Shown piece by piece: positions 693 through 51,960 of a stretch of 64,000 nt of DNA (its first letter is position 1; each line of letters begins with the position of its first letter). The translations under genes were made by a program, and so were the position numbers. This DNA comes from a virus: the IMG/VR virus record IMGVR_UViG_3300008114_000003, positions 62,001 to 126,000 of that record. One strand, written 5' to 3'. The notes beneath the pieces are model-generated. The model had not been told where the DNA came from. It did not search any database and saw only the letters and a program-made list of their open reading frames with translations.

Positions 693-1034
693 ATGAAAAG
701 AATAAAGTTGTTTGAGGAATTCCAATTTTCTTTTAATAAAGAAGATAAGATTAAATCTATTAAAAACCTACACGGTTTACCAAAAGAATTAAAAGAAGTT
801 GCTTATGAACTCGTTAAATATGTGACAAGTGTTAAAAAAGGTAAAGTTTTTGGACTAGAATTACACCCAGAATTAAAAAGGAAAATTAAAGAAGGTGGAT
901 ATCCAAATGGATATGATATGGGTATTGATAAAGATGGGTATTTTATTCATACTCATAGAGCGCGTAGCAAAAGTCATGATAAACCTAGTGGTATCACAGC
1001 TAAAGAAATGAAATTTATAGATTCAACTGGTTAA
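693..1034 (+). CDS. small protein with capsid-targeting-like N-terminus
   Basis: 113 aa starting MKRIKLFEEF, one of fourteen proteins here that share a Met-Lys-hydrophobic-x-Lys-x-Phe-x-Glu type N-terminus resembling the T4 internal-protein capsid-targeting sequence. The body is basic. The C-terminus has a distinctive stretch (GYFIHTHRARSKSH, then KFIDSTG) that I recall from other phage hypothetical proteins but cannot assign. The start is supported by the TTTATATATA-N4-ATG signal. Function unknown; an internal head protein is a hypothesis. Confidence 0.6.
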   Translation: MKRIKLFEEFQFSFNKEDKIKSIKNLHGLPKELKEVAYELVKYVTSVKKGKVFGLELHPELKRKIKEGGYPNGYDMGIDKDGYFIHTHRARSKSHDKPSGITAKEMKFIDSTG

Positions 1035-1035
1035 A

Positions 1036-1365
1036 TTATCTTAACATCCAGTCACCAGACTTTATTTCTTTGAAGTTTGAAACATCATGTTTATATTCAT
1101 AAACCCAACAATCTAAATCAGAAGATGTTCTAACCTTTTTTCTAATATATTCATCACCTTCAAATTCATCTAATTTATCAAATACAACAGGATCTATTAA
1201 ATAAACATCACCAACAACTTTACCTTCACCACTAACAAAGCCTGGATAAAAGTTATCAACTCTATATAATTTCCCCTTAATTGTAGATTTACCACAAAAT
1301 GTAGTCTTACCTAAAAGATCTCTAGCAGAGTCTCTAAACATACCATAAACAAATATATACTCCAT
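1036..1365 (-). CDS. gamma-glutamylcyclotransferase-like (GGCT/AIG2 fold) protein
   Basis: 109 aa. The N-terminus FVYGMFRDSA matches the family phosphate-loop signature YGTLR/YGSLR with substitutions. The mid region (GKLYRVDNFYPGFV, then VVGDVYLID) and the acidic DEFEGDEYIRK segment, which should carry the catalytic Glu, follow the family order. GGCT-fold enzymes release 5-oxoproline from gamma-glutamyl peptides or amines; the substrate here is unknown. It converges tail to tail with 693-1034. A TTAATATATA motif lies 5 nt upstream of its ATG. Confidence 0.75.
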   Translation of the reverse strand: MEYIFVYGMFRDSARDLLGKTTFCGKSTIKGKLYRVDNFYPGFVSGEGKVVGDVYLIDPVVFDKLDEFEGDEYIRKKVRTSSDLDCWVYEYKHDVSNFKEIKSGDWMLR

Positions 1366-1376
1366 AAATGTATATA

Positions 1377-1904
1377 TTAATTTAACAAATCGTTAATTAT
1401 ATGATCTCTATAATCATTAAAATATTTATTGAATTCTTCAACACCTACTCGGAATTCTTCATTCCTATCATTTAAAATTATTATCATTCCATGATAAATA
1501 GGATCCCAACAATAAAGATACTTAATATCTTCGTAAAATCTATATTTTCGACTACCATAATTATAGTCTAACTTACAATATTTTGTACAAATACAAACAA
1601 GAAAGTTATAAGTTACTTTTATATTTTCTCCACTTTTTCTATCCCAATGTCGCTTTATTTCTTGTTTTGATTTCGGGTTATATCCCTTTAATTTTTTAAC
1701 TCTTTTCCAACCAAGTATTTTATTGTGTATTTCTTTTTTATCATTATTACACTTTTTGATGAACTCTAATTCATCAATACCTAATCGTTTAGCAAACTTC
1801 TCAGGACTAAATCTAGTAAACTTATGAAAATCGACTAAATTATCTTCGGTTATTTTAGTCTTGATTAAACTATCATATAATGAGTTATATTCTTCTAATG
1901 TCAT
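1377..1904 (-). CDS. hypothetical protein, 175 aa
   Basis: Mostly helical N-terminal half with a possible helix-turn-helix-like stretch (SPEKFAKRLGIDELEFIKKC, about residues 33-52). The C-terminal half is rich in Tyr, Asp and Cys. No enzyme motif recognised. Its start overlaps the end of the HAD gene (1901) by 4 nt, so the two are probably co-transcribed. Confidence 0.6.
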   Translation of the reverse strand: MTLEEYNSLYDSLIKTKITEDNLVDFHKFTRFSPEKFAKRLGIDELEFIKKCNNDKKEIHNKILGWKRVKKLKGYNPKSKQEIKRHWDRKSGENIKVTYNFLVCICTKYCKLDYNYGSRKYRFYEDIKYLYCWDPIYHGMIIILNDRNEEFRVGVEEFNKYFNDYRDHIINDLLN

Positions 1905-4754: not shown

Positions 4755-5804
4755 ATGACTAGGGAAGAATTTTTAGAAAGAGCACGTGATAAGCATGGAT
4801 ATAAATATGAATATCCAAATTTGAAAGATAAAGTATTATCAACTGATGATATAGATATAATCTATAACGGTGAACTATATAGACAAAAAGTTGTTAAGCA
4901 CATAACATTGGGTCGTTGTCCAGAGAAAAATACACCAACAAAAACCACCGAGCAATTTATTAAAGAAGCTAAAGAAGTTTGGGGTGATAAATATGATTAT
5001 TCATTAGTAAAATATAAGGGAGCTCTTAAAAAGGTTAAGATAATATATGATGGTCTTATATTTGAACAGGTCGCTATTTCTCATTTACAGGGACAATGTT
5101 GTGAAAAAAATTTAACCAAAGATAATTTTATAAGAAAATCAATAAATAAACATGGTGATAAATACGATTATTCTATGGTTAAATATATATCAGGTGATAT
5201 TCCTGTTTTAATAGGATATAAAGGTGTGTATTATTTACAAAAACCATATAATCACATAGGTGGTTCTAAACCAGAGAATATTGAATTATCAGTAAGAAAG
5301 ACAACTAAAAAGTTTATACAAGAGGCTAATTTAGTTCATGATTTTAAGTTTAGTTATGATAAAACTGATTATGTTAAGAATCAGATTAAGGTTATAATTA
5401 CTTGTCCTATACATGGTGATTTTAATCAAACTCCACTTTCACATTTACAGGGTAATGGTTGCCCTAGTTGTAGTGAATCTCGTGGTGAAAAGTTAATTTC
5501 TAAATATTTGGATAAGAATGATATTTCATATTATAGACAGCATAAGTTTCCTGATTGTAAGAATATATTTCAATTACCATTTGATTTTTATTTACCGAAA
5601 TACAGAACTATAATAGAGTTTGATGGTAAACAACATTATGAGCCGATTGAACATTTTGGTGGTTTAGAGGCTTATGAGCGTTTAAAGGTGAATGATAAGA
5701 TTAAGAATGATTATTGTGAGGATAATTATATTAATATAATAAGAATTAGATATGATCAGATTGATCGTATTTATTATATATTAAATGAGAGTTTAAGATT
5801 ATAA
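4755..5804 (+). CDS. PD-(D/E)XK (EDxHD/Vsr-like) homing endonuclease
   Basis: 349 aa. Residues ~1-240 hold four degenerate repeats of about 60 aa (KHGYKYEY, WGDKYDYS, HGDKYDYS, HDFKFSYD), a putative DNA-reading array; the last ends CPIHGDFNQTPLSHLQGNGCPSC, a zinc-binding-like knuckle. The C-terminal nuclease has GEKLISKYL, PFDFYLP and IIEFDGKQHYEP, the Glu/Asp/Glu-x-Asp-x-x-x-His pattern of Vsr-like EDxHD homing nucleases. It is free-standing beside uvsX, a classic site for such elements. It overlaps the convergent gene at 5799 by 6 nt. Confidence 0.85.
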   Translation: MTREEFLERARDKHGYKYEYPNLKDKVLSTDDIDIIYNGELYRQKVVKHITLGRCPEKNTPTKTTEQFIKEAKEVWGDKYDYSLVKYKGALKKVKIIYDGLIFEQVAISHLQGQCCEKNLTKDNFIRKSINKHGDKYDYSMVKYISGDIPVLIGYKGVYYLQKPYNHIGGSKPENIELSVRKTTKKFIQEANLVHDFKFSYDKTDYVKNQIKVIITCPIHGDFNQTPLSHLQGNGCPSCSESRGEKLISKYLDKNDISYYRQHKFPDCKNIFQLPFDFYLPKYRTIIEFDGKQHYEPIEHFGGLEAYERLKVNDKIKNDYCEDNYINIIRIRYDQIDRIYYILNESLRL

Positions 5805-6221
5805 ACTAATACATACACAATAGTAATCATATCCTTGATGACCTCTTAATAAAGGTTGTTCATACAAAACTTCCACTTTATAATTAGGATATTCGTCTTT
5901 TAGGTTATTTATAGCACCTTCCAATTTAAGAAGGAATTCATTTGTTATTTTATTAAATTCAATAAAGTCGGATATTTCTCCTTTATATCCATCTGCTGTG
6001 AATTTCACTTCTAACTCAGGACAATTTATAAATACTCTACAATCTGTTGGGTTTCCACTTTCGGTTACTTCTTCAAGTGTTTCTGAATTGCCCCAACGGA
6101 ATTCACCACATTCATTATCTTCATTATATGAATATTCCACTAAATCAGTGAAACAATGTTTGATATACTCAACATCAATTGAATTATCGGTATTTTCGTT
6201 AAATTTTCTTAGGTGTTTCAT
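5799..6221 (-). CDS. MKHLRKFNE-tagged paralogue 1 (putative internal head protein)
   Basis: 140 aa beginning MKHLRKFNEN, then SIDVEYIKHCFTDLVE. First of three adjacent genes with the same N-terminal tag. Its body is closest to the third copy (6601-6993): both have EYIKHCF and DEYPNYK/N. The tag resembles the T4 capsid-targeting sequence, and FNE matches a hydrophobic-x-Glu prohead-protease cleavage site. Function otherwise unknown. Confidence 0.65.
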   Translation of the reverse strand: MKHLRKFNENTDNSIDVEYIKHCFTDLVEYSYNEDNECGEFRWGNSETLEEVTESGNPTDCRVFINCPELEVKFTADGYKGEISDFIEFNKITNEFLLKLEGAINNLKDEYPNYKVEVLYEQPLLRGHQGYDYYCVCISL

Positions 6222-6604
6222 ACTTTATATTCAATATTTATTTTTAACTCACCAATTCTATTTACAATGAAGTTAACTTCATTTCCTTCACTTTCTATAT
6301 CTTTAATTATGGCGTTTATACTATTAAGTGTTTCTTGTTTAATTCTTAATATTTCCATCTCATTTTCAATTGACGCTTTTAAAAAACCAGCATTTCCATA
6401 TGGTGATCTATTCCATAATTTACCTTCAACAGGTTCCAATTTAACTTCAACATAAACACATTGAACACCTTCCACTCTTATTGGTTTTGCTATCAAAATA
6501 TTAACATTATAGTAACCACTCTCTGAGATATCAGCAAAAAGTGTTTCTAGATATGATTTAGTTTCATCTTCAAAACTTTCATTAAATTTTCTTAGGTGTT
6601 TCAT
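6218..6604 (-). CDS. MKHLRKFNE-tagged paralogue 2 (putative internal head protein)
   Basis: 128 aa beginning MKHLRKFNES. The body (YLETLFADISESGYYNVNI onward) is more divergent than in copies 1 and 3 but has similar length and a similar alternating beta/helix plan. It overlaps both neighbours by 4 nt, so the triplet is one translationally coupled unit. Confidence 0.65.
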   Translation of the reverse strand: MKHLRKFNESFEDETKSYLETLFADISESGYYNVNILIAKPIRVEGVQCVYVEVKLEPVEGKLWNRSPYGNAGFLKASIENEMEILRIKQETLNSINAIIKDIESEGNEVNFIVNRIGELKINIEYKV

Positions 6605-6993
6605 TTTTTATTATTTATATTTATCTGGAAGTAGTCATTTGGTCTATCATCATCCTCTTCGTAATTTATTTCAATATTATAATTAGGATATTCATCTTTT
6701 AATCTTTTGATTGAGATATCAATTGATTTAATAATATGTGATATTCTTTCAGAATTACCAATCATTCTTTCAAAAGTTCCACCCTTAGTTATTCTAGGGA
6801 TATCTATGGTTAAATCAACATATTCGTCATTAAGTGTGATTTCATCGTTTGGATTATCACGTAGATAATCTTCATGTGTATCATATTCTACATCACATTC
6901 TGGATCATCTGATAAGTCATTAAAACAATGTTTGATATATTCTATATCAAGATGCTCATTTATACTTTCGTTAAACTTTCTTAGGTGTTTCAT
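6601..6993 (-). CDS. MKHLRKFNE-tagged paralogue 3 (putative internal head protein)
   Basis: 130 aa beginning MKHLRKFNES, then EYIKHCFNDLSDDPEC. Strongly acidic body with RLKDEYPNYNIEINYEEDD near the C-terminus, homologous to copy 1. First gene of the triplet in transcription order, directly downstream of 6993-7457. Confidence 0.65.
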   Translation of the reverse strand: MKHLRKFNESINEHLDIEYIKHCFNDLSDDPECDVEYDTHEDYLRDNPNDEITLNDEYVDLTIDIPRITKGGTFERMIGNSERISHIIKSIDISIKRLKDEYPNYNIEINYEEDDDRPNDYFQININNKK

Positions 6994-18936: not shown

Positions 18937-20853
18937 ATGAAGATAAGAAAACTCGGAGATAAAAAATGGAAAGTATTGATTTTTCAAGGATCACCTAGAG
19001 ATCCTGATACTTGTCCTAATATGGAATCAAAAACTCACAAAGTAATTGAGTATGTTATAGAAAAATGGTCTCCATTTTTAGAAATAAAAGTTATTGATTT
19101 ATCTGTAAATAAATCTAAAAAACCAAATATACAACCTTGTAAGGGTTGTGTTTCAACTGCTGGCGGATTTCATTGTATCGCAGAAGGTGAGAGAGTTGAG
19201 ACTAAATATGGATATAAAAAAATTGAAGATATCTTAATAGGAGATGAATTATCAACCGGAACCGTTTATAATTTTATGAAAACCGGTGATAATTCTATTA
19301 TATATGAGGTTACAACAAGCGACGGAAGAAAAATAAAATTAACTGATAATCATCCTATAAAAGTAATAAATCCTATTTACAAAAATAATAATAAAAAAAA
19401 ACTAAAAGGATATACTGAAGAATGGATCGATGTTAAGAATCTAAAAACCGGTGATAGAATACCATTTAAATTTACTGGTGAATTTAAAGAAGATGAATCA
19501 AATTTAGATAAATATCTTTTATGTGGCTTATTATGGGGAGATGGAGCGGTTCATCATAAAAGACTTAAATTATGTTATGATGTAAGAGATGAAATTCTAA
19601 TTGAAAAACTATCTAATAATTTTAATATCTCAATTTCTGAGAAGGGAGTTATATCAAAAAATACCGAAGTTAAATGGATAAAATTTAATGACAATGAAAC
19701 CAATTTATTTATCAACAATCTTATATTTGAAGAAAAAAACAAGAATATATATGATCGAAGAATTCCAGAATCCATAATGAATTCATCAAAAAGTCAAGTT
19801 TCTAATTTTTTAAATGGTTGGTTTGCTAGTGATGGATCAATTATTAAAAGAAATAATAGAGGAAACGATTATTATGAAATAAATCTAACAAGTGTTAGTA
19901 AAGATTCTTTAAGAGATTGTCAATTGCTACTTTCTAAATTTGGTATAAAATCATCTATAACCTATTTGGATCATATAGAAACTTTTAGGTTTAATAAATT
20001 TATAAAAAGAGCATCTATGTTAGTTATAAGTGGCCTTAATGCTAATATTTTTATGGAAAAAATAGGAATATTTAATAAGGATTATAAATTTAAAAAAATT
20101 TCTTATAGAAAATCTAAAAATTATGACTATTATGGTAAAGTCGAAAAAATAGAAGAAATTGGTAGATCAAATGTTTATGATATATCTGTTTCAAAATCAC
20201 ATAAATTTATATGTGAAGGTATAGAAGTTCACAATTGTCACTTTCCTTGTAGTTGTTATTTCAAAGGGATGAAAGAACCTGATTTACTTTCAGAGTTAAA
20301 TGTTTATGAATTACTACAAGAGGCTGATGCTTTTTTAGTATTTTCTCCAATACACTGGCACTCCTTATCATCACAAGTTAAAACTCTTTTTGATAGATTG
20401 GTCAGTGTTAATCAAACTCTTACAATTGATGATGCCAAGAAACTAATGGGTTCTGATAATATTAAAAGATCAGAAGTTACTGGTAAGTTCGCTAAGTCTG
20501 GTAAATATGACAATCTTCTAAGAAATCATTTAGAAGGTAAAGTTGGTGGATTTTACGCACATGGTGATGACGGTGCTGATGATTATGAGGGTAAAGAATT
20601 ACCAGAATCATATTCCGATGTATTTGATGATGGTTTTTCAAATAATGCCAAAAATGTCGTAATGCCATTCGTAATGCAACTTAAATATTCTGGAGTTTGG
20701 GTTCCTGATAATTTAATAGAAACGTTTTATACAAATAAAAATATTAATTATTATGTAGCTAATAAGTTAAAGAATAAAGAACTTTATGATAGAGCCGATA
20801 ATTTAATCAATAATCTTTTAGATTATTTAGATGAAAAAAATAAAGAAATATAA
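18937..20853 (+). CDS. flavodoxin-like NAD(P)H/FMN reductase precursor, interrupted by an intein
   Basis: 638 aa precursor. The host protein is residues 1-79 joined to 434-638 (284 aa after splicing). The N-extein has a flavodoxin_2/FMN_red phosphate loop (LIFQGSPRDPDTC, residues 14-26) and CKGCVSTAGGFH. The C-extein continues CHFPCSCYFKGM and then a flavodoxin core (ADAFLVFSPIHWHSLSSQVKTLFDRL). The joined Cys-rich loop resembles the FMN/Fe-S-binding loop of iron-sulfur flavoproteins. It is probably an FMN-dependent oxidoreductase; its substrate is unknown. The ATG overlaps no other gene and has the TTAATATATA motif. Confidence 0.8.
   Translation: MKIRKLGDKKWKVLIFQGSPRDPDTCPNMESKTHKVIEYVIEKWSPFLEIKVIDLSVNKSKKPNIQPCKGCVSTAGGFHCIAEGERVETKYGYKKIEDILIGDELSTGTVYNFMKTGDNSIIYEVTTSDGRKIKLTDNHPIKVINPIYKNNNKKKLKGYTEEWIDVKNLKTGDRIPFKFTGEFKEDESNLDKYLLCGLLWGDGAVHHKRLKLCYDVRDEILIEKLSNNFNISISEKGVISKNTEVKWIKFNDNETNLFINNLIFEEKNKNIYDRRIPESIMNSSKSQVSNFLNGWFASDGSIIKRNNRGNDYYEINLTSVSKDSLRDCQLLLSKFGIKSSITYLDHIETFRFNKFIKRASMLVISGLNANIFMEKIGIFNKDYKFKKISYRKSKNYDYYGKVEKIEEIGRSNVYDISVSKSHKFICEGIEVHNCHFPCSCYFKGMKEPDLLSELNVYELLQEADAFLVFSPIHWHSLSSQVKTLFDRLVSVNQTLTIDDAKKLMGSDNIKRSEVTGKFAKSGKYDNLLRNHLEGKVGGFYAHGDDGADDYEGKELPESYSDVFDDGFSNNAKNVVMPFVMQLKYSGVWVPDNLIETFYTNKNINYYVANKLKNKELYDRADNLINNLLDYLDEKNKEI
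19174..20235 (+). mobile_element. intein with LAGLIDADG homing endonuclease, 354 aa
   Basis: Begins at Cys80 (CIAEGERVETKYGYKKIEDI, block A) and ends HKFICEGIEVHN before Cys (blocks F/G, splice Asn and +1 Cys). Block B is TDNH. Two LAGLIDADG-type helices are visible: LCGLLWGDGAV and FLNGWFASDGSI, each with its acidic catalytic residue, so it should be an active-type bifunctional intein. It is inserted in the Cys-rich functional loop of the flavodoxin-like host, as expected for inteins. Confidence 0.92.
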
Positions 20854-21341
20854 TGAAAAAGTTTTTTGAGTTTTTTGATGATGAAGATTTAAAATCAAGA
20901 TTTGAAATACCTTATTTAAAGGGAGAAATGGATAAAGAGATTTCTAAAAATTTTACAAAAATACCTTTAAGTTCTGGTGATGAGAATACAGATAAATTAG
21001 TTGAGAATGTTTTAATTCAATATCCAATACTAACTAAGTTTCAGTCACAGTTAGTCGATCATGATGGAGATAGATTTGTAGCTTTTTATGCAACTTCATA
21101 TAAACCAGTACAAGGTATGACTTTTTATGCTCAAGCTGGATTAGCTTTTATAGAAGATACTTATGTTATTACTTTAATATTGAAAGATGTTGAAGATGAC
21201 GATCAAGATAATTGGGAGATTAGAGATTATGAAGTAACAGAAATGGAAGATGTTTATTCTATAATGGACTCTTTTATGATGGCTTGTGAAAAACTTAATA
21301 TAGTTAAACCAGAAGATAAATTCTCTATAATGAGAAACTAA
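20853..21341 (+). CDS. hypothetical protein, 162 aa
   Basis: Begins MKKFFEFFDDEDLKSRFEIP, loosely like the tagged proteins listed elsewhere but without the conserved Lys. The body is an alpha/beta domain with FYATSYKPVQGMTFYAQAGLA. It shares one base with the reductase stop (TAATG), so it is coupled to it. Function not recognised. Confidence 0.6.
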   Translation: MKKFFEFFDDEDLKSRFEIPYLKGEMDKEISKNFTKIPLSSGDENTDKLVENVLIQYPILTKFQSQLVDHDGDRFVAFYATSYKPVQGMTFYAQAGLAFIEDTYVITLILKDVEDDDQDNWEIRDYEVTEMEDVYSIMDSFMMACEKLNIVKPEDKFSIMRN

Positions 21342-30569: not shown

Positions 30570-30576
30570 AAAGATT

Positions 30577-31362
30577 ATGATTATAAGTAAAATACAAGGT
30601 GGTTTAGGAAATCAAATGTTTCAATGGGCTTATGGTAGATATTTATCTCATAAACATGATACCGAGTTGAGATTAGATACTAATTTCTATAATTATAGAT
30701 TACCCGGTACAACTCAAAGAGAGTTTTTATTAAATAGATTTACAAACATTTCAACAAATACAGATTTAAGAGTATCATTAGTTGGTCCTATCTATAAAAT
30801 AGAAGATAATTTTATTTTTAAAGAGGTGCCAAAGCCAGTGAATGTAAATTATTATCTAGATGGATATTGGCAAAGTGAAAAATATTTTAAAGAAATAGAA
30901 TCTTTGATTAGAGAAGATTTTAAACCAAGTGATGAGATGTTGAGTAAACTATTAAAAACTCCATTGATTGATAAAAATAATATTTCACTTCATATAAGAA
31001 GAACTGATTATGTTACCTCAAATGGTTATCATCCAGTACAATCTATTGAGTATTATAATAAAGCAGTTGAGACAATTGGTGAATATGATTACATCTTTGT
31101 TTTTTCTGATGATATAAAATGGTGTAAAGAAAATTTACATTTTGATAATATGATATTTATGGAAGGTTTTACTGACATTCAAGATTTATATTTGATGTCT
31201 TTTTGTAAGAATAATATTATTGCTAATAGTTCATTCAGTTGGTGGGGGGCTTGGTTAAATAATAATATGAATAAAAAAGTAGTTGCTCCTGAGAAATGGT
31301 TTGGTGATATGGCTAATATTAACACAACTGATATTATACCAGAAAGTTGGATAAAGATATGA
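30577..31362 (+). CDS. GT11-type glycosyltransferase, second copy
   Basis: 261 aa from the ATG at 30577 (MIISKIQGGLGNQMFQWAYG); a longer frame starting at 30475 runs through the upstream GT11 gene and is rejected. Motifs: GGLGNQMFQ, LHIRRTDYV, NSSFSWWGAWLN. It matches the canonical GT11 motif set more closely than the upstream copy. Confidence 0.9.
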   Translation: MIISKIQGGLGNQMFQWAYGRYLSHKHDTELRLDTNFYNYRLPGTTQREFLLNRFTNISTNTDLRVSLVGPIYKIEDNFIFKEVPKPVNVNYYLDGYWQSEKYFKEIESLIREDFKPSDEMLSKLLKTPLIDKNNISLHIRRTDYVTSNGYHPVQSIEYYNKAVETIGEYDYIFVFSDDIKWCKENLHFDNMIFMEGFTDIQDLYLMSFCKNNIIANSSFSWWGAWLNNNMNKKVVAPEKWFGDMANINTTDIIPESWIKI

Positions 31363-32465: not shown

Positions 32466-33061
32466 TAGCTAAATATAAAGAAGATATAAGTTGGACAAAA
32501 CTATTTAAGAGATCTAAACTTTTTATTTATGACAAAAGTGGTGATGATAATGGTTATATAAATTTACCAAATTTTGGTAGAGAAGCTCATACCTATCTAT
32601 ATCATATAGTTAATAATTATGATAATTTATCTGATTATGTTTGTTTCCTACAAGGTAATCCATATGATGGAGTAAAGGGTAATTTAAGTCAAAATATTGA
32701 GACTATTGACTCTTATAACGGATCAGACTTTCTTTGTTTATCACATCTTTTAAAATGTAACTTGGATGGCGGACCTGTACACCCTGGTTTGAATATAAAA
32801 GAAATTATATTTGATAAATATTTTGAAAATAGTCCAAATGAATTATATTTTATAGTAGGAGCTCAATTTTTAGTTAGTAGAAATTTTATAAAAATGAGAC
32901 CTAAGCAATTTTATATTAACCTACTAAGTGAGTTTGATAGAGATGATATAAATGATACAGTGATTCCACCACATAAAGGTGGTGGTGTTAATAAAATGCC
33001 GTGGATAATGGAGAGAATTTGGTTCTATGTATTTAACGAAAAATATAAATTAAAATTATGA
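32450..33061 (+). CDS. DUF3431-like putative glycan-modifying protein
   Basis: 203 aa: VVIAKYKEDISWTKLF, LPNFGREAHTYLYHIVNNYD, DYVCFLQGNPYDG, YFIVGAQFLVSRNFIKMRP and PWIMERIWFYVF. This matches the DUF3431-type pattern (N-x-GRE-x-HTYL, FLQG, GAQF, MERLW) often next to glycosyltransferases. Enzyme activity unknown. It overlaps glf by 16 nt. Confidence 0.7.
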   Translation: MVEVVIAKYKEDISWTKLFKRSKLFIYDKSGDDNGYINLPNFGREAHTYLYHIVNNYDNLSDYVCFLQGNPYDGVKGNLSQNIETIDSYNGSDFLCLSHLLKCNLDGGPVHPGLNIKEIIFDKYFENSPNELYFIVGAQFLVSRNFIKMRPKQFYINLLSEFDRDDINDTVIPPHKGGGVNKMPWIMERIWFYVFNEKYKLKL

Positions 33062-33819
33062 TTAACGAAAAAGATATTTGTTTTGTAACAACAACACTAT
33101 ATACTAAATTTTTGAATTATCAATCAAAAATTTTAAAGAGTAATTTTCCTGAAAGTCAACATATAGTAGTTGATGGTAGAAAGGAATGGCCCAATTCTTG
33201 GTTTTATTGGATTGAAGAAGTTAAAAAAACTGATTGTAAATACTTTGTTCATATTGATGAAGATTTCTTTTTAACATCAAAGGATGAGTTTTTAAAAGCT
33301 GTTCAGAAACTTGAAAGTGTTGATATACTTGGTGTATCAGATGGATATTCTCAATTTAGAGGTGCTAATCCAGTGGCTATTAATGCTTTTTTACTTATGG
33401 GTAAAATTGAATTTTTGAGAAAAGTTAATTTCTCAAATATACAATTTGGGTTTCATCCTGTTAATGGTTGGCTTAATAACTATGGAATTAAGTTTGAAGA
33501 AGATTATAAAAAAGATTTTAAATATCAACACGAAATTCAAGGTGGTTCTAATTTTAATTATGAACAAGAGCCTTACTACGCATTTTTATGGACTATGAAA
33601 AAGTTAGGTTGTAAATTTGATTATTTATATCCACACTTTGATGAGAGATTTAAATCGACAAATCCTAGATTAGATAAAGATTCACCAGATATAGGAATTC
33701 ATATGTGGTATACAAGAAACTGGTCTAGTAATGAAGATGTACATGGTATGACTAATATTGATAGATACAATTCTGTTGAAAGTTATATACTTGAAAATTT
33801 AATATTAGAAAATGAATAG
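33058..33819 (+). CDS. GT-A-like glycosyltransferase
   Basis: 253 aa: CFVTTTLYTKFLNYQSKILK, KYFVHIDEDFFLTSKDEF (acidic DxD-like metal site), GANPVAINAFLLMGK and IGIHMWYTRNW. A glycosyltransferase fold is inferred from the D-E-D strand end and context. It does not match a GT family I can name. Confidence 0.6.
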   Translation: MINEKDICFVTTTLYTKFLNYQSKILKSNFPESQHIVVDGRKEWPNSWFYWIEEVKKTDCKYFVHIDEDFFLTSKDEFLKAVQKLESVDILGVSDGYSQFRGANPVAINAFLLMGKIEFLRKVNFSNIQFGFHPVNGWLNNYGIKFEEDYKKDFKYQHEIQGGSNFNYEQEPYYAFLWTMKKLGCKFDYLYPHFDERFKSTNPRLDKDSPDIGIHMWYTRNWSSNEDVHGMTNIDRYNSVESYILENLILENE

Positions 33820-34495
33820 AGTTTATATAAATGTTGCTGTGATGGGTTCTGTTAATGAAGTTTTGACAAACCTATTAAATAGAATTAAAGATAGTAGTTT
33901 ATACGAAAATTGTGATGTAATCAATTTAGTCATTAATGGTGATATAAACTTATTAAAGGTGAATTTAGATGATCCTAAATATAAAATTTGGAATAAATAT
34001 AAAGATACTTCATATAATGAGTTTCCAACTTTAGATCTAATTTGGAAACATTCACAAGACGAAGATTTCAATGTTCTTTATTTACACACAAAAGGAGTAA
34101 GTAGAAATCATCCTTTTATAACGGATTGGACTAATTACTTATCTTATTTTAGTATAAATAAATGGGAAGATAGATTAGAAGAGTTAAAAGAGAATGATTG
34201 TACTGGTGTTAATTTAAGAGGTAATCCAGAAGATATCAAATTTCATCCTATGTATTGGGGATATGGTAAAGCCCCTAAACATTATTCTGGTAATTTTTGG
34301 TGGAGTAAATCTTCACATATTAAAAATTTATGTAATCCAATCACTTGGATGCCTAATAATGATTATCTGAAATGGAGAATGATGTGTGAAATGTGGGTTT
34401 GTCAATTACCAGAATCAAAATACTATAATGCTCATACATCAGATGTTGATCATTACCAAAATCCATATCCAGGAGAATTATATGAAACAGTTTAA
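33812..34495 (+). CDS. putative glycosyltransferase (YLHTKG type)
   Basis: 227 aa: VYINVAVMGSVNEVLTNLLN, FNVLYLHTKGVSRNHPFITD, GVNLRGNPEDIKFHPMYWGYG, FWWSKSSHIKNL and HTSDVDHYQNPYPGELY. The VLYLHTKG motif with a later W-x-x-x region is frequent in polysaccharide glycosyltransferases of bacteria. Last sugar-modifying gene of the island; it overlaps both neighbours. Confidence 0.65.
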   Translation: MNRVYINVAVMGSVNEVLTNLLNRIKDSSLYENCDVINLVINGDINLLKVNLDDPKYKIWNKYKDTSYNEFPTLDLIWKHSQDEDFNVLYLHTKGVSRNHPFITDWTNYLSYFSINKWEDRLEELKENDCTGVNLRGNPEDIKFHPMYWGYGKAPKHYSGNFWWSKSSHIKNLCNPITWMPNNDYLKWRMMCEMWVCQLPESKYYNAHTSDVDHYQNPYPGELYETV

Positions 34496-40643: not shown

Positions 40644-40793
40644 TTAATTTTTTTTCATATATTCCTCAATTAATTTCTCTATAACTTTTGATTTATCTAA
40701 AAGATTATCATCTATATGCTTTTCAAAAACTTCATATAAATTTGGATCCATAGAAAAATATATTTTTAATTTTCTTTTAGTTTTAATTTTCAT
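40644..40793 (-). CDS. ribbon-helix-helix-like small protein, 49 aa
   Basis: MKIKTKRKLKIYFSMDPNLY, then EVFEKHIDDNLLDKSKVIEKLIEEYMKKN. A strand followed by two helices with a Ser-x-hydrophobic turn fits a ribbon-helix-helix repressor. Short gap between the gp32 start and the HNH gene. Confidence 0.6.
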   Translation of the reverse strand: MKIKTKRKLKIYFSMDPNLYEVFEKHIDDNLLDKSKVIEKLIEEYMKKN

Positions 40794-40808
40794 ATTTTAT
40801 TTTATATT

Positions 40809-41396
40809 TTAATCAGACCATTTGTTTCCTTTAGATAGATTATCCTTAGCCCATAGTGGTTGAAAATTAGTGTAATGGTTTAACTCGTATATCTCATCTT
40901 CTGTATTAGCCCAACTTATCGGCGTTTTGTGGTCTAAGTGCCATTTACCATGATTTTCCCAAGTCATTCCTTCATTGAATTGACTTTCTATGTGAATTTT
41001 GAATTCTTCAAATGAACAGCCTAGTATATTATTCACTTTTGATTTTTTTGAAAATCCTCTTTTCTTAATCGATGTGTAAATCAACTTTCTTATAGATATC
41101 GATAGTTTAAATAGATTATCATATTTTTTTCTTTCATTTATATAAATATTTCTATTTTCTCTATTCTCTTCTTGATATTTTTTATTTCTCTCTATTATAT
41201 AATCTTTATTTTTAGAGTAATTTTCTCTAGATCTCTGTATAAGAATATCTCTATTATCAATATAATATTCTTTCATTTTTTCTTTTCTAGAATCATTATA
41301 TTTTTTATTTAAAATTTTATTACATTCTATACAAACTGACCATCTTTTAAATTGAGATAAATCTTTTTCTAATTCACATTTACTGCATTTTTTCAT
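40809..41396 (-). CDS. HNH homing endonuclease, 195 aa
   Basis: CSKCELEKDLSQF ... CIECNK zinc ribbon, charged linker, then WENHGKWHLDHKTPISWANT and LNHYTNFQPLWAKDNLSKGN, an HNH core nearly identical in layout to 47036-47599. The TTAATATATA motif sits 4 nt upstream (41401-41410) inside a perfect 20-nt palindrome (41399-41418). Confidence 0.9.
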   Translation of the reverse strand: MKKCSKCELEKDLSQFKRWSVCIECNKILNKKYNDSRKEKMKEYYIDNRDILIQRSRENYSKNKDYIIERNKKYQEENRENRNIYINERKKYDNLFKLSISIRKLIYTSIKKRGFSKKSKVNNILGCSFEEFKIHIESQFNEGMTWENHGKWHLDHKTPISWANTEDEIYELNHYTNFQPLWAKDNLSKGNKWSD

Positions 41397-41421
41397 AAGT
41401 TATATATTAATATATAACTTC

Positions 41422-41452
41422 TACCTTTTCTACCTTTTCTACCTTTTCTACT
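41422..41452. repeat. 9-bp tandem repeat
   Basis: TACCTTTTC repeated three times plus a partial copy, directly downstream of the 80-aa gene and upstream of the HNH start motif. Confidence 0.8.
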
Positions 41453-41694
41453 TAATTTTGTTGGTTAATTCCCATAATCTTTTCAGATAAATATTCTGTA
41501 TAAGCAATACTACCCAAACTCTCTTTTGTGTATTGAGAATAATCTGGCTTATACCATCTACTATCAAAATAATTATTATGTGAATTATCAATTACTTCAC
41601 CCCTAAAAATTTTTAAGATTTTTTGAGCTCTTAAAAAAGAATTATATCCAACATCATTTCTATATGGATCAACACTTATATAATATGGGTTCAT
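41452..41694 (-). CDS. hypothetical protein, 80 aa
   Basis: MNPYYISVDPYRNDVGYNSF, Tyr/Asn-rich, with IDNSHNNYFDSRWYKPDYSQ. It starts inside the stop of the upstream 56-aa gene (ATGA). Function not recognised. Confidence 0.55.
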   Translation of the reverse strand: MNPYYISVDPYRNDVGYNSFLRAQKILKIFRGEVIDNSHNNYFDSRWYKPDYSQYTKESLGSIAYTEYLSEKIMGINQQN

Positions 41695-41861
41695 TTTCTA
41701 ATTGTTTTAATACGTTCAACTTGATATTTCATTATATCGACATTTTTATATTGGTTTAAGAAATCAACTATTTTTTTATACATCTCAATAGGTGTTTCTA
41801 ATAAAATACATCCATATGGATAAACCCCCTCATTTATAAACTCAATATATTTTTTTATCAT
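41691..41861 (-). CDS. hypothetical protein, 56 aa
   Basis: MIKKYIEFINEGVYPYGCIL, then LETPIEMYKKIVDFLNQYKN. Small alpha/beta protein. TAAATATATA lies 4 nt before its ATG (41866-41875). It precedes the 80-aa gene with a 4-nt overlap. Confidence 0.55.
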   Translation of the reverse strand: MIKKYIEFINEGVYPYGCILLETPIEMYKKIVDFLNQYKNVDIMKYQVERIKTIRK

Positions 41862-41898
41862 ATTCTATATATTTATATCGCCATTCCAAAAAAGTTAT

Positions 41899-41906
41899 TA
41901 TATTTG
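41899..41906 (+). promoter_or_regulatory. Bacteroidota-type -7 promoter element
   Basis: TATATTTG 21 nt before the ATG at 41928; divergent from the minus-strand start motif at 41866-41875. Confidence 0.6.
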
Positions 41907-41927
41907 TAAAACAAAATAAGACGAGTT

Positions 41928-42098
41928 ATGGAAAGATATTCAATGAAAGAGGTTTTAAAACAAAAGTATGGAGAAGTAGAAAAATCTAAAGGTGGTAAAG
42001 TTGCTACCAAAAGAGCTACTAAAAATGCTGAGAAAAAAGAAACTGGTAAATATGTTACCAAAATCGTAGATGGTGTTAAATATATGGTTTTGAAATAA
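41928..42098 (+). CDS. small basic protein, 56 aa
   Basis: MERYSMKEVLKQKYGEVEKS, then a Lys/Thr/Ala-rich central stretch (GGKVATKRATKNAEKKETGK) and KIVDGVKYMVLK. A nucleic-acid-binding role is possible. It overlaps the next gene by TAATG. Confidence 0.55.
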   Translation: MERYSMKEVLKQKYGEVEKSKGGKVATKRATKNAEKKETGKYVTKIVDGVKYMVLK

Positions 42099-42499
42099 TG
42101 ACTAGTGAAGAAATAATAGAAGGCAATAAAATCATAGCTGAGTTTATGGTTCCTAACTGGGAACTTCTTAAATCAGATACTTATGAGGGTGGAATTGAAA
42201 CTAAAGACTTATGGGTAGCCGCGAGTCTTTGTAGTGAAGAATATGGAACACTAAGATATCATATTTCATATGACTCACTCTTTAGAGTGATTGATAAATT
42301 AGAAGAAGATATTTATAATTGGGTTACTTTATCTGGTCATAGATGTTTAATAGAAGAAAAATGTCCATATAGTGGTAAAGTCTATAAAAAAGTAGAGTAT
42401 AACGGACTAAACTCAAAAGGTAGTAAAATAGAAAACTACTGGAGAACAGTAGTTGATTTTATAAAATATCTCAATGAAGAAAAAAAGAGTGATTTATAA
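42098..42499 (+). CDS. hypothetical protein, 133 aa
   Basis: Begins MTSEEIIEGNKIIAEFMVPN; the layout with EEYGTLRYHISYDSLFRVID and VVDFIKYLNEEK recalls conserved hypothetical proteins of Bacteroidota phages (IxxNKxIAEFM near the start, then YHxSWD-type). Function unknown. A bidirectional terminator follows. Confidence 0.6.
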   Translation: MTSEEIIEGNKIIAEFMVPNWELLKSDTYEGGIETKDLWVAASLCSEEYGTLRYHISYDSLFRVIDKLEEDIYNWVTLSGHRCLIEEKCPYSGKVYKKVEYNGLNSKGSKIENYWRTVVDFIKYLNEEKKSDL

Positions 42500-42515: not shown

Positions 42516-42839
42516 TTAGTTTAAACTATAATAACCTGGGCCAGGATAACCTTCAAATCCTGGAGGTGGTCCATCTTGATCATCGTCTTCATCTTCATCA
42601 TAATAATCTTCATCATCGTCATCCGAATCAAAATCAAAACCCATATTTACCAATTCAGACATAACTTCATCGGTTAGTTTCATATCACCTTTTCTTTCTT
42701 CCATGTAATTATCAAACATACCTACTGTGAACTTACCTTTTTCCTTTTTAATTTCTTCTAGTTTTGGTAGAATATCTTCAGCAATTTCTTCAGCTAAACT
42801 CTTATCATTATAACCTTCAAACGTTTTTAAATATTTCAT
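42516..42839 (-). CDS. acidic protein with capsid-targeting-like N-terminus, 107 aa
   Basis: MKYLKTFEGYNDKSLAEEIA at the start, then a helical part and a highly acidic segment (DFDSDDDDEDYYDEDEDDDQ) with a Gly/Pro-rich end (GPPPGFEGYPGPGYYSLN). The tag matches the family of fourteen. Its acidity is unlike its basic neighbours. Confidence 0.6.
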   Translation of the reverse strand: MKYLKTFEGYNDKSLAEEIAEDILPKLEEIKKEKGKFTVGMFDNYMEERKGDMKLTDEVMSELVNMGFDFDSDDDDEDYYDEDEDDDQDGPPPGFEGYPGPGYYSLN

Positions 42840-42854: not shown

Positions 42855-43085
42855 TTAAATTCTCTTGAAATTATTTATCTCAACACACATATCAATATCT
42901 TCATAAGATTCACCATCAGAAACATCACTACCTTGTTCAACTAGAAACTTATTTAACTCTTCTCTTGTAGGCATTTGTGGGTGCTCAATAAAATAGATGT
43001 AGTGATCAGAACTTTCACTTGTAGTCGTTAAAACAAATTGTTTCATCTGACTATTATTTTCATTATATTTATTTAAGTATTTCAT
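42855..43085 (-). CDS. protein with capsid-targeting-like N-terminus, 76 aa
   Basis: Start chosen at MKYLNKYNENNSQMKQFVLT, which aligns with the tag family; a start 12 codons earlier at 43121 would put the tag inside. The body is a small alpha/beta domain (YIYFIEHPQMPTREELNKFL). Confidence 0.55.
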   Translation of the reverse strand: MKYLNKYNENNSQMKQFVLTTTSESSDHYIYFIEHPQMPTREELNKFLVEQGSDVSDGESYEDIDMCVEINNFKRI

Positions 43086-43095
43086 ATTGTATTTT

Positions 43096-43740
43096 TTATT
43101 TTTTAATGTATTCATATACATATTTTTTAAATCTCTTTTGAGTTTCTAAATCCATAGAAGAATAAACATTTTGAATCCAAGATACTTTTTTACCACCTCT
43201 CAAAACATCTAAAATATCATCATCACTCATTCCCACTTTTCTACATTGAACAATAAATGAGTCAGCATAAGCCATAACTTCATCGGTTGAACTAAAATAT
43301 TTCTTATGATCCACTGGTGATCTTTCTAAGTTTCTTATAGTTACATCTGGTCTTCTTTGAGCTTGTTGTTTATGTACAGATTCGTGTCTTAATACTTCTT
43401 CCAAAAAGTCTAATAACCTATTCTTTAATGGACTATTAATAGACTTTATAAACTCATTCTCATCTATACAGATATACATTTTATTAGTATAAACATTATG
43501 AGCTCCCCATCGAATACCACCCATTAATGGAGGCATATCAACCGGAACCAACTCGATTTCCTTTTTTGTTTGTAGTTTAGATTTAAAGTATTCAACATCA
43601 ACAAACTCAACATTCATATCATTGAATATCTCTTTTAAGTTATCTAATGTTATGTTACTCATTGATCTAACTTTTTCAAGAGCTTCCGTGAAATCATATG
43701 GTTGAATTACAGCCTCATTAAATCTTTTCAAATATTTCAT
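43096..43740 (-). CDS. HExxH metallopeptidase-like protein with capsid-targeting-like N-terminus
   Basis: 214 aa. Tag MKYLKRFNEA with FNE at residues 7-9 (a possible prohead-protease site). Zincin-type motif LRHESVHKQQ (His119, Glu120, His123), followed by STDEVMAYAD where Glu154 is a candidate third ligand. No signal peptide. A virion-packaged protease acting in the host cell is a hypothesis from the combination of tag and motif. TTAATATATA-N4-ATG precedes it (43745-43754). Confidence 0.65.
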   Translation of the reverse strand: MKYLKRFNEAVIQPYDFTEALEKVRSMSNITLDNLKEIFNDMNVEFVDVEYFKSKLQTKKEIELVPVDMPPLMGGIRWGAHNVYTNKMYICIDENEFIKSINSPLKNRLLDFLEEVLRHESVHKQQAQRRPDVTIRNLERSPVDHKKYFSSTDEVMAYADSFIVQCRKVGMSDDDILDVLRGGKKVSWIQNVYSSMDLETQKRFKKYVYEYIKK

Positions 43741-43763: not shown

Positions 43764-44108
43764 TTAATTTCTTCTTATATATGATATGTGTAAATTATAA
43801 TTGATATAATCAATTGAGAATGTCGCTGGATTTCTAATTGATTTAGAATCAACTTCTCCTCTTCTATACAATCTGAATCCAAATCCTTTAAGATAATTAT
43901 CCAAATGGTTAAATACATCTGATATTTCATCTAAAGTAAATTTATTCTTTGATGAGATATCGATTGTAACTTGATCAACTGGTTTATCAAAATAACTAAT
44001 AGTATATTTAAAATAACTTGGTAGTTCCATCAAAACATCTTCAATATATTCCTTATCAGGTAATTCTAAAACAGATTCAAACAACTTAAAGCTTTTTATC
44101 CTTTTCAT
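43764..44108 (-). CDS. MKRIKSFKLFES-tagged paralogue 1
   Basis: 114 aa, beginning MKRIKSFKLFESVLELPDKE. Shares its first 12 residues with the next gene, while the bodies differ. LFE is a hydrophobic-x-Glu cleavage-like site. It overlaps 44105-44572 by ATGA-type coupling. Confidence 0.6.
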   Translation of the reverse strand: MKRIKSFKLFESVLELPDKEYIEDVLMELPSYFKYTISYFDKPVDQVTIDISSKNKFTLDEISDVFNHLDNYLKGFGFRLYRRGEVDSKSIRNPATFSIDYINYNLHISYIRRN

Positions 44109-44572
44109 ATTTTATTTACTTTTTTATTTTCTTCAAGATTGTCCATCAATTTATTCATATAACCTCTCAAATCAATTGTGTACGCAACACGAACTCTATT
44201 ACTAGACATTCCTATTCTATTACCAATACACACATAATCTAAATGTTCTTTTAATAAACGAAGAAACCTTTCTAATAAATCTTTATTTTTATCTTGTTCA
44301 ACTTCATCCATAGTAACCATAAGCATTAAACCATTTCCATCATCATCACCATGAAAGGTTGAACTAAAATCATCACAAGAACGACCAAATCTATCCTCAT
44401 TTTTTAAATAAATAGATTGAATATTTACTTTACAATCAACTAAATGATCTTCTAACTCATAAAGTATACCTTCTATATCCTCTCTAACCTCAGATAGAAC
44501 AACAACTCTATCTTTTGCCGTCATTTTACTACCTGTTGATTCAAACAACTTAAAACTTTTTATCCTTTTCAC
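44105..44572 (-). CDS. MKRIKSFKLFES-tagged paralogue 2 (GTG start)
   Basis: 155 aa beginning MKRIKSFKLFESTGSKMTAK; the start codon is GTG (complement of 44570-44572), unusual in this window. Central acidic loop (CDDFSSTFHGDDDGNGLMLM). Predicted alpha/beta; no motif recognised. Confidence 0.6.
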   Translation of the reverse strand: MKRIKSFKLFESTGSKMTAKDRVVVLSEVREDIEGILYELEDHLVDCKVNIQSIYLKNEDRFGRSCDDFSSTFHGDDDGNGLMLMVTMDEVEQDKNKDLLERFLRLLKEHLDYVCIGNRIGMSSNRVRVAYTIDLRGYMNKLMDNLEENKKVNKI

Positions 44573-44575: not shown

Positions 44576-44866
44576 TTATTTATTTTGTTTATTATCTTCA
44601 CCTTTAAACGGACCTAACATACCTTTTAAGTTCCAAGAAGAGACAAACTTCTTGTTGTGTTTTTCATAGTCTTCATATGACTCAATACCACTATCAATAG
44701 GATTTTCAATATATTGAATGTTAGCACCTTGTTTATTCATATCAGAAATACGATTACCAATATCAGTTTTAGCTGACATCTTCATAACTTTTTTTAACTG
44801 ATCTACTGTTTGTTGACGAGGTAAAGCCTCATTTATACTAAACTCTTCAAATTTCAATATCTTCAT
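44576..44866 (-). CDS. protein with capsid-targeting-like N-terminus, 96 aa
   Basis: MKILKFEEFSINEALPRQQT start (INE as the possible cleavage site). Remainder polar and helical. TTAATATATA sits 4 nt before the ATG (44871-44880). Confidence 0.6.
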   Translation of the reverse strand: MKILKFEEFSINEALPRQQTVDQLKKVMKMSAKTDIGNRISDMNKQGANIQYIENPIDSGIESYEDYEKHNKKFVSSWNLKGMLGPFKGEDNKQNK

Positions 44867-44876: not shown

Positions 44877-45239
44877 TTAATTTTTACGACTATAAATACC
44901 AACCGACAGTGCATAATTATATGAGTTATCCGGTAAATCATAGAACTTAACATCTTCTAATTCATATCCTTCAAACCTAATTTTATATTGTGGTAATCTT
45001 GGAATATCTTTTAATCTCTTTTCACCAAGTTCTTTAGCCATTTGTACCATTTCATCTCTATCATAAACATCATAGTTTGAAAAACATCTATCACACCAAC
45101 CTTCGGTATAAATAATTTTATCTCCAATTTTAGTTATGATATTTGTTTGAGATGGAATATCAGAATCGGGTATAGAGTTTACTAAGTCCGATAATTCGGA
45201 TTCAAAGTTAAAACTCTCAAATAATTTAAGTTTTTTCAT
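44877..45239 (-). CDS. protein with capsid-targeting-like N-terminus, 120 aa
   Basis: MKKLKLFESFNFESELSDLV start. Contains WCDRCFSNYDVYDRDE, a CxxC pair, and a beta C-terminus ending ALSVGIYSRKN. TAAATATATA-N4-ATG precedes it (45244-45253). Confidence 0.6.
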   Translation of the reverse strand: MKKLKLFESFNFESELSDLVNSIPDSDIPSQTNIITKIGDKIIYTEGWCDRCFSNYDVYDRDEMVQMAKELGEKRLKDIPRLPQYKIRFEGYELEDVKFYDLPDNSYNYALSVGIYSRKN

Positions 45240-45283: not shown

Positions 45284-45589
45284 ATGAAAAATATCAAAAC
45301 TTGGGATATGTTCAACGAAGGTAAAACAATGAAAGCATCTAAATCATCTGATTCTGATGTTAAAGTTGAAAAATTCAGAGAAACTATTGAGAACTTCTTG
45401 AAAAATATGAAAGACGCTAAAGTTAAAACTGTTGGTACAGATTTAGAAGTTAACTTAGAAGATGTTAAAGTTCAAGTAATGTTCCGTAAAGATTATGTTG
45501 GTGTTAAGAAAGTAGGTGAGAAAGCCGAAGAATTCAAATACGACCAATTAGGAAAAATTAAAAGTGAAATCAAAAAACACTTAAAATAA
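45284..45589 (+). CDS. protein with capsid-targeting-like N-terminus, 101 aa
   Basis: MKNIKTWDMFNEGKTMKASK start (FNE at residues 10-12). The rest is Lys/Val-rich, alternating helix and strand (VEKFRETIENFLKNMKDAKV). The only plus-strand gene of this tag cluster; a bidirectional terminator follows. Confidence 0.6.
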   Translation: MKNIKTWDMFNEGKTMKASKSSDSDVKVEKFRETIENFLKNMKDAKVKTVGTDLEVNLEDVKVQVMFRKDYVGVKKVGEKAEEFKYDQLGKIKSEIKKHLK

Positions 45590-50339: not shown

Positions 50340-50341
50340 AC

Positions 50342-50370
50342 AAAAAACCAGTCAATGACTGGTTTTTTTT
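50342..50370. terminator. bidirectional terminator
   Basis: AAAAAACCAGTCA / TGACTGGTTTTTT stem with a 1-nt centre, between convergent genes. Confidence 0.85.
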
Positions 50371-50995
50371 ATTCATTATCTATTGATATAATATAATCTA
50401 TTAGAGATTTGATACTATCAAACTTTTTAGTTCTATATTGAACGAGATATAATTCATTCTCACTAACATAATTAACCTTATGATCATAATCTTCTAAATG
50501 TTCATATTGAACACCAAACTGAACAATATCTTTATGTTCACCATTTATTGTATAATTAACTCTTTTTAAGTTATCACCTAAAAATTTCATACTTTTTATG
50601 ATTAAATCTAAATCAGTATTATCGAAATAGAATTTACTTAATTTAAAAGCAAATTGGTTTGTATCTGGATTAAATCCAGATGTAAAAAAACCTTTAAGTT
50701 GTTCAAAATACTTATTTGAGATATTATATTTTTTACTCGTTGTTCCATGACCGTGTTCAAATATCCAATCACATTGTTCTTTATTAAAATCAAATATACT
50801 AACCGGTAATGACTTAGAATGAGATTCTTCACCCTCTTCTTTTCTTTTTGTTAGAACAGCATTTATATCTCTAATTTTATCACCCAATTCGTTATATTCA
50901 ATTCTTGACCAATGTAATAACTCTTCAAGATCCTCTGTATCCATTGAATCATAAGAATGAACTTTATTTTCGTTATAACTCTTTATGTATTTCAT
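50369..50995 (-). CDS. protein with capsid-targeting-like N-terminus, 208 aa
   Basis: MKYIKSYNENKVHSYDSMDT start (YNE). Body has DLEELLHWSRIEYNELGDKI and NYTINGEHKDIVQFGVQYEH. No motif recognised. It overlaps the 321-aa gene by a single base, so the two are translationally coupled. Confidence 0.6.
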   Translation of the reverse strand: MKYIKSYNENKVHSYDSMDTEDLEELLHWSRIEYNELGDKIRDINAVLTKRKEEGEESHSKSLPVSIFDFNKEQCDWIFEHGHGTTSKKYNISNKYFEQLKGFFTSGFNPDTNQFAFKLSKFYFDNTDLDLIIKSMKFLGDNLKRVNYTINGEHKDIVQFGVQYEHLEDYDHKVNYVSENELYLVQYRTKKFDSIKSLIDYIISIDNE

Positions 50996-51960
50996 TACTT
51001 TATATTTTTATTTTCATAATTGTGGTTTAATGTAATTCTCATAAATGTTCTACGTTTACCTTTACTAATCAAAAGAGTTTCATGTGGTGTATTACTTGAC
51101 ATAAAATACAATTGATTCTTTTCAAATACAACTTTTCTATCATCGGTCAATTGTTCTTGCATTTTTTCAAATGAACCTTCTCCTAAAATCTCACCATAGA
51201 ACTCACCACTCCAAGCCTGACACCCAACTTCAGTTGATACAGTTAGAATACCTCCTTTACTTTCAGACACATAATCAGCAATTGGAATAATAACATCTTT
51301 ATACGGTAATACCCAATCCATTTTAACATGAGAGTTATCAGACTTAGCTTCATATTGATACTCTTTTATACGAGCACCTCCCCAACTTGGTTGTGGTTCA
51401 GCACCACCCCAAGAAGCTTTAAAATCATCATCGTACCTAGCACCACCCCAACTTGGCTTTGGTTCAGCACCACCCCAACTTGGCTTTGGTTCAGCACCAC
51501 CCCAAGAAGCTTTAAATTCATCCTCGTAATCTTCAACATCATCGAAGAAATCATCACTTAAAACATCATCAACTTTTGTCTCGTTTAATTTTTTGAAGTT
51601 AGGATCAACACAAAAATTACCATCAATATGAACTCCTTCTCTTCTAAGAAACTCATCAGTTGTGAAGAATTTAGTATCAATTGTAACATAGTGTGTATTC
51701 GCGCCTTCTTGTAGAGGTATATTTTTAATTACTTCATTAAAAGCTTCCTCCCATATTTTAAATCCTTCGGGTAAAGAAACCCAACCTCCTGTATTTTCAA
51801 ATGGCATAACACTTAATTTAAAATCTCCAAACTCTGGATCTGGTAAAATAACTTCACCTAGATTTTTAACATTAGTTCTGTGATAGTTAACATTTTCTAT
51901 CAATCTAACATTATTTCTTAAACTCTCTTTAAAATTTTCAATATTTTTCAAATACTTCAT
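50995..51960 (-). CDS. 2OG/Fe(II)-oxygenase-like protein with capsid-targeting-like N-terminus and SWGGA repeats
   Basis: 321 aa. Tag MKYLKNIENFKESLRNNVRL. The core has H-x-D (GVHIDGNF, His111/Asp113), then a distal His293 in SSNTPHETLL followed by RRTFMRI (Arg304/Arg308), the order of a 2-oxoglutarate/Fe(II) dioxygenase. Between them, residues 151-197 hold five (A/P)SWGGA(E/R) repeats in a flexible insert. The metal triad is plausible but the fold cannot be confirmed by eye. Coupled to 50369-50995. Confidence 0.5.
   Translation of the reverse strand: MKYLKNIENFKESLRNNVRLIENVNYHRTNVKNLGEVILPDPEFGDFKLSVMPFENTGGWVSLPEGFKIWEEAFNEVIKNIPLQEGANTHYVTIDTKFFTTDEFLRREGVHIDGNFCVDPNFKKLNETKVDDVLSDDFFDDVEDYEDEFKASWGGAEPKPSWGGAEPKPSWGGARYDDDFKASWGGAEPQPSWGGARIKEYQYEAKSDNSHVKMDWVLPYKDVIIPIADYVSESKGGILTVSTEVGCQAWSGEFYGEILGEGSFEKMQEQLTDDRKVVFEKNQLYFMSSNTPHETLLISKGKRRTFMRITLNHNYENKNIK
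51374..51511 (-). repeat. SWGGA-coding tandem repeats
   Basis: Five copies of a SWGGA-coding unit, two of them exact 27-nt neighbours (PSWGGAEPK), within the oxygenase-like gene. Slippage-prone. Confidence 0.8.

Follow-up and report, generated by a model that had tools for sequence, protein, structure and literature searches.

The internal proteins of T-even phages are reported to have only an N-terminal packaging leader in common; at least 10 have been reported from T4 relatives, with three in T4 blocking type IV restriction enzymes (PMC12373910, PMC3012670). The T4 protease gp21 is reported to remove the N-terminal propeptides of the internal and capsid proteins and to cut the core (PMC5694885). 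Here we describe short N-terminal segments of a similar kind (hereafter the tags) on proteins encoded in a 64,000-base stretch of viral DNA (hereafter the window), which spans bases 62001-126000 of the 126,978-base virus record IMGVR_UViG_3300008114_000003; window coordinates are used below. A sequence-only reading of the window had noticed fourteen such proteins and had compared their N-termini with the T4 capsid-targeting sequence. Our analysis suggests, with a probability of about 0.78, that the tags are T4-type capsid-targeting sequences used on an exceptional scale and that the tagged proteins are ejected; precedent from T4 is found in PMC3012670, PMC5694885 and PMC12373910. No description of megaphage tags of this type was found in the open-licence literature.

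The source record is a 127-kb piece of the genome of a Mahaphage-like megaphage. A 2020 study described huge phages with complete genomes of 634, 636, 642 and 735 kb; its clade Mahaphage comprises all of its genomes larger than 634 kb, and Bacteroidetes hosts were predicted (PMC7162821). The nearest named relatives of the window are LR745206.1 (634,780 bases) and LR756502.1 (642,428 bases), and the farther relatives are LR756504.1, LR756501.1 (735 kb), Tenacibaculum phage PTm1 and Sphingomonas phage PAU. Gene calling relied on a simple custom script, and individual starts may be wrong.

All fourteen genes were present, each with an N-terminal tag (Table 1), and thirteen of them carry [LIVMFYW]-x-E near the N-terminus, with the Glu at residue 8-13; the exception is gene 42516 (MKYLKTFEGY). 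A fifteenth tagged gene, 41691-41861 (MIKKYIEFINEG), had been overlooked and is the closest match to the T4 tag in the window. Its product resembles a 2H phosphoesterase that has been truncated; longer relatives of it in LR756502.1 and LR745206.1 match Acb1/2'-5' RNA ligase. The start of gene 42855-43121 belongs at an internal Met, at 43085 (MKYLNKYNEN), and the tags of genes 43764 and 44105 are identical. In the product of gene 43096, the Glu-Ala junction is unchanged across three orthologues; in its predicted structure residues 1-15 are of low confidence or disordered, and the first helix begins at residue 18. A structure search with this model gave no significant match, and a PDB sequence search gave a single weak one (E=0.0079). 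Most of the tagged proteins of the window gave no Pfam domain match, and the RecA, Clp, RNR, DnaJ, GrpE and glycosyltransferase proteins encoded there carry no tag.

Over the whole 127-kb contig, the motif was found at 22 of the 83 starts of the form M.?[KR] and at 2 of the 141 internal M.?[KR] sites (Fisher p=6e-9), while shuffles gave an expectation of 4.1 motif starts. The corresponding counts for starts and internal sites were 125/434 and 33/726 in LR756502.1, 105/418 and 37/717 in LR745206.1, 73/428 and 37/987 in LR756501.1, and 27/224 and 11/361 in the first 360 kb of LR756504.1. The complete relatives (634-735 kb) each encode about 75-150 tagged proteins. The sequence-only reading had envisaged a large cargo on the basis of 14 tagged proteins; the number per complete relative is well above that. 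As a test independent of Met-Lys, [LIVMFYW]xE[SAGN] was counted by position, and it peaked at residues 8-14 (126 observed against 29.5 expected in LR756502.1, 126 against 34 in LR745206.1, 98 against 36 in LR756501.1, and 24 against 7.9 in a fourth sequence). The peak in PTm1 was weak (22 against 13.8). In 80 further IMG/VR loci, which share orthologues, the tag was again enriched, with 69/963 genes against 28/1455 internal sites.

In an A+T-rich genome, bias in base composition or at translation starts could produce MK-rich N-termini of this kind by chance, and Lys at position 2 is in fact enriched in all of these phages, including PTm1. PTm1, however, has a similar G+C content (30%) and showed no motif enrichment (2/118 starts, 6/207 internal sites). 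The enrichment in the megaphages reaches residues 7-12 as an amino-acid pattern, the motif is about 5 times as frequent as in the internal and shuffled controls, and 47 of the 48 MK[HY][LI]K tags of LR756502.1 are distinct at the DNA level, with varied codons. On the basis of PTm1, of these controls and of the codon variety, we ruled out codon or start bias, which the sequence-only reading had named as the alternative, as an extremely improbable explanation. As a separate observation, His and Tyr at position 3 of the LR756502.1 tags mostly have C-ending codons (68% CAC and 65% TAC, against 32% and 21% genome-wide).

The end of the tag resembles, in sequence, a gp21-type cut site, in which hydrophobic-x-Glu is followed by a small residue. 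Ser, Ala or Gly follows the tag Glu in 74% of cases in the contig, 58% in LR745206.1, 57% in LR756502.1 and 42% in LR756501.1, against a background of 13-16% after other Glu residues. The tags end at residues 8-14, short of the phiKZ-type propeptides of more than 100 residues.

A Peptidase_S77 match was found in each of LR745206.1, LR756502.1, LR756504.1, LR756501.1 and PTm1, although all of these matches except that of PTm1 were under the curated cut-off. The gene for this gp21-like protease adjoins the capsid gene, and the alignment showed conservation of the region of the T4 His, Ser and Asp. The search for such a protease, which had been proposed as a check, was thus successful in the complete relatives, where the triad is present, but the gene lies outside the 127-kb contig of the window. 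A PF03420 search of this contig and a scaffold search of its sister contigs were both empty; these are fragments, in which absence means little. In the megaphages the protease and a long scaffold region are fused in one protein, and this region contains 10-12 units of LDKNIxYSEY(I/L)AEN. Across 80 IMG/VR scaffolds the unit spacing is 14 residues (724 cases), with one constant gap of 42 residues (77 cases), and AlphaFold2, with low to moderate confidence, modelled the repeat stretch (235-448) as a single long helix. Sites of the tag type occur throughout the scaffold of the relatives, and the N-termini of their major capsid proteins have one (HQINE/N, the slash marking the putative cut) ahead of the conserved part, in an alignment that is loose.

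The scaffold units were further compared with the T4 tag. A profile of 45 units from four megaphages, in which no tag was included, was scanned over all 46,912 ten-residue segments of T4 proteins, and ranks 1 and 2 were taken by the two T4 proteins with the known targeting sequence (KTYQEFIAEA). At megaphage N-termini, in register with the tag Glu, the profile gave 7, 8 and 14 matches against 0.7, 1.3 and 1.3 expected; column-permuted profiles performed equally well in only 3-8 of 500 cases for the megaphages and in 27 of 500 for T4. The repeats were picked for study after the tags had been seen, and the profile evidence is supportive, not blind. The profile matches only the MIKKYxEFINE class, and at least this tag looks like one unit of the 14-residue helical repeat of the scaffold. 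The MKHLKxFNE class shares with the T4 tag just the general pattern and spacing.

The tags appear as exchangeable units. Among the NFACT-R proteins adjoining the capsid gene, 29 of 38 N-termini end in Glu-(Ser/Gly/Ala/Asn) at tag distance, and their tags switch class and length (MKYLKYFE, MIKNFNSFNE, MRNLSTFKRFLNE) with E-(S/G)-K-K kept. Between orthologues, tags are swapped or lost and the Glu-(Ser/Gly) junction stays fixed. The T4-type RNA ligase 1 of the window has an in-frame TAA 15 bases upstream with no start codon in between, whereas its orthologues in LR745206.1 and LR756502.1 are longer by about 16-22 residues, which make up a tag; the window ligase is apparently a natural tag-minus comparison. 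The RNA-repair genes of the window, two RNA ligases and a HAD_SAK_2 protein (58511-59155, 60134-61357, 1901-2398), are all untagged. The tRNA nucleotidyltransferase (CCA-adding enzyme) begins with MI(L/I)xKYxxFLES in both close relatives and has no tag in LR756504.1, and a 2H phosphoesterase of LR756502.1 that matches Acb1 and 2'-5' RNA ligase models carries MIKKYLEFMKES. Tags were found on RNA ligase, tRNA nucleotidyltransferase, SET, DHH, radical SAM, 2H phosphoesterase and NFACT-R proteins, which are unrelated to one another.

The bodies of the tagged proteins had been described as unrelated. This is correct in part: genes 5799 and 6601 are paralogous (E=7e-7) and the product of gene 43764 belongs to a large paralogous family. 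It could be argued that the shared N-terminus is a remnant of one expanded protein family. A profile search joined in one family about 39 (38-39) of the 148 tagged proteins of LR756502.1, about 21 (20-21) of the 130 of LR745206.1 and one window protein (43764); several members missed by the motif also start in a tag-like way. Tagged genes also stand in tandem runs, with 47 adjacent pairs against 19.5 expected. The bulk of the bodies, however, are separate, the 148 tagged proteins of LR756502.1 falling into 141 BLAST clusters, and the tags vary between orthologues. The occurrence of tags on unrelated enzyme folds rules out common descent as the full explanation, for which we consider it quite improbable; it holds for a minority.

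The large tagged family has a short conserved body of the (D/E)ILxDLxDDGF type and occurs at many loci in LR756502.1 and LR745206.1 (for example L029 and L030). Outside the window, G000 bases 40721-42319 and 55066-61035 encode four paralogous tagged proteins of 511-586 residues that begin MK[YFH]IKL(F/Y)EAF, and no Pfam match was obtained for the two of them that were tested.

The T4-like shared sorting signal proposed in the sequence-only reading is supported by the protease in the relatives, the small residue after the Glu, the sites in the scaffold and capsid protein, the modularity, and the retrieval of the T4 tag by the scaffold profile. We infer the following course of events. Late in infection, the N-terminal segment would dock on the scaffold and recruit the tagged protein into the prohead core. 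The gp21-family protease, which is fused to the scaffold in the relatives, would cut after hydrophobic-x-Glu to remove the tag and would dismantle the scaffold at similar sites. The trimmed cargo would remain with the DNA, be ejected into the next host and act before phage gene expression. There it would probably repair tRNA damaged by the host, quench immune signals made of cyclic nucleotides and serve in other counter-defence; the presence of RNA ligase, CCA-adding enzyme, an Acb1-like enzyme and NFACT-R among the tagged proteins would suit a role in repair and in evading immunity during the first minutes. These viruses may thus preload an unusually large protein kit and inject it into infected cells.

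Several points weigh against this reading. In LR756504.1 (first 360 kb) the signal is weak, with Ser, Ala or Gly after only 20% of the tag Glu residues. It is absent or marginal in PTm1 and in Lak-B9, which was tested as a further Mahaphage and gave no tag signal in 400 kb, even though a gp21-like protease occurs in both. Neither the 127-kb contig nor its sister contigs contain the head module, and the protease and scaffold of the window's own phage are therefore inferred from the relatives. A single paralogous family makes up about a quarter of the tagged proteins of LR756502.1. The tagged proteins are slightly acidic, contrary to what would be expected beside packed DNA. A search of the literature gave no proteomic study of such a virion, and the commonest class of tags (MKHLKxFNE, MKHLKxYKIFE) has no scaffold-profile score.

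It is worth noting that the last two points also favour another interpretation, namely that the tag sorts proteins elsewhere, to a phage-made compartment, a membrane assembly site or a host complex, or that its removal serves some other end, with the likeness to T4 arising by convergence on a short amphipathic peptide. The protease-type site with its small residue after the Glu, the like sites in the scaffold and capsid protein and the retrieval of the T4 tag by the scaffold profile argue against it. Contigs with tags also coincide with contigs with scaffolds, though tags and scaffold may simply be two markers of one phage clade: when IMG/VR was searched with a DNA pattern for MKHLK-type tags that end in (F/Y)NE, 41 stretches matched, and at least 8 of their contigs belong to the 80 listed scaffold-bearing contigs. 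We therefore regard sorting elsewhere as unlikely.

If the tags are capsid-targeting sequences, a short readable tag would predict which of the mostly uncharacterised proteins of the largest phages enter the host at the start of infection, and candidates for early counter-defence factors could be listed directly from it. Resemblance to the scaffold's own repeat would offer a concrete, testable answer to how capsid-targeting sequences are recognised. A broader hypothesis, which we advance tentatively and at somewhat less than even odds, is that capsid targeting is scaffold mimicry: every tag would imitate one 14-residue helical unit of the scaffold, and any protein bearing such a tag would co-assemble into the core and be freed by the scaffold-fused protease. 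The largest phages might then be an open delivery platform for more than 100 exchangeable cargoes, including preloaded tRNA repair and breakers of cyclic-nucleotide signals, and the T4 tag would be a related instance of this principle.

Table 1. Tagged genes of the window and the untagged RNA ligase 1; the slash marks the putative cleavage point.
Position	Strand	Product	Tag	Remarks
693..1034	+	Tagged protein, 113 residues	MKRIKLFE/EF	No Pfam match
5799..6221	-	Tagged protein, 140 residues	MKHLRKFNE/N	Paralogue of 6601; tagged orthologue in LR745206.1
6218..6604	-	Tagged protein, 128 residues	MKHLRKFNE/S	
6601..6993	-	Tagged protein, 130 residues	MKHLRKFNE/S	Paralogue of 5799
20853..21341	+		MKKFFEFFDDED	Doubtful tag; orthologue MSIKRLYEFFDDED
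41691..41861	-	Tagged protein, 56 residues	MIKKYIEFINE/G	
42516..42839	-	Tagged protein, 107 residues	MKYLKTFE/G	Weak site (P3 = Thr); tagged orthologue in LR745206.1
42855..43085	-	Tagged protein	MKYLNKYNE/N	Corrected start 43085
43096..43740	-	Tagged protein, HExxH zincin-like motif	MKYLKRFNE/A	
43764..44108	-	Tagged protein	MKRIKSFKLFE/S	Member of large paralogous family
44105..44572	-	Tagged protein	VKRIKSFKLFE/S	GTG start
44576..44866	-	Tagged protein	MKILKFEEFSINE/A	
44877..45239	-	Tagged protein	MKKLKLFE/S	
45284..45589	+	Tagged protein	MKNIKTWDMFNE/G	
50369..50995	-	Tagged protein	MKYIKSYNE/N	Tagged orthologue in LR745206.1
50995..51960	-	Tagged protein, phrog_8970 domain	MKYLKNIENFKE/S	
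60134..61357	+	T4-type RNA ligase 1	Untagged	Begins at domain

In the protein encoded at 50995-51960, SWGGA-type tandem repeats are inserted within the phrog_8970 domain protein. Elsewhere in the window, an NADPH-dependent FMN reductase-like protein (18937-20853) is split by an intein with a LAGLIDADG endonuclease domain, and a cluster at 26039-34495 of glycosyltransferases (GT2, GT11, exostosin GT47) and UDP-galactopyranose mutase suggests surface glycan modification.

Among known systems, the phiKZ-like phages (SPN3US, phiKZ) likewise have a big cargo of head proteins, ejection proteins included, with propeptides cut after Glu by a related protease, but several of those propeptides exceed 100 residues (PMC5694885), against 8-14 here. 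In phage P1 an N-terminal signal of DarB is enough for a reporter to be carried into the head (PMC9024508), but no shared consensus was found among the Dar proteins. The cultured Sphingomonas phage PAU is similar: it encodes a gp21-like protease, and about 20 of its proteins carry N-terminal tags with sites of the hydrophobic-x-Glu-small type. The consensus of these tags is a different one, MKTLxxLYE(S/A), and in many cases a further site, KLNE(S/A), comes after it that resembles the start of PAU's own capsid protein (...AKLNES). The T4 capsid-targeting sequence (MKTYQEFIAE/A) is likewise a 10-15-residue N-terminal tag on otherwise unrelated proteins, with K-x-aromatic-x-x-aromatic followed by hydrophobic-x-Glu, a gp21-family protease and a counter-defence theme. 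T4, however, has 3 internal proteins, against about 75-150 tagged proteins per complete relative here, where the tags are of mixed classes, the protease is fused to a repeat scaffold, and RNA-repair enzymes and an Acb1-like phosphodiesterase are among the putative cargo.

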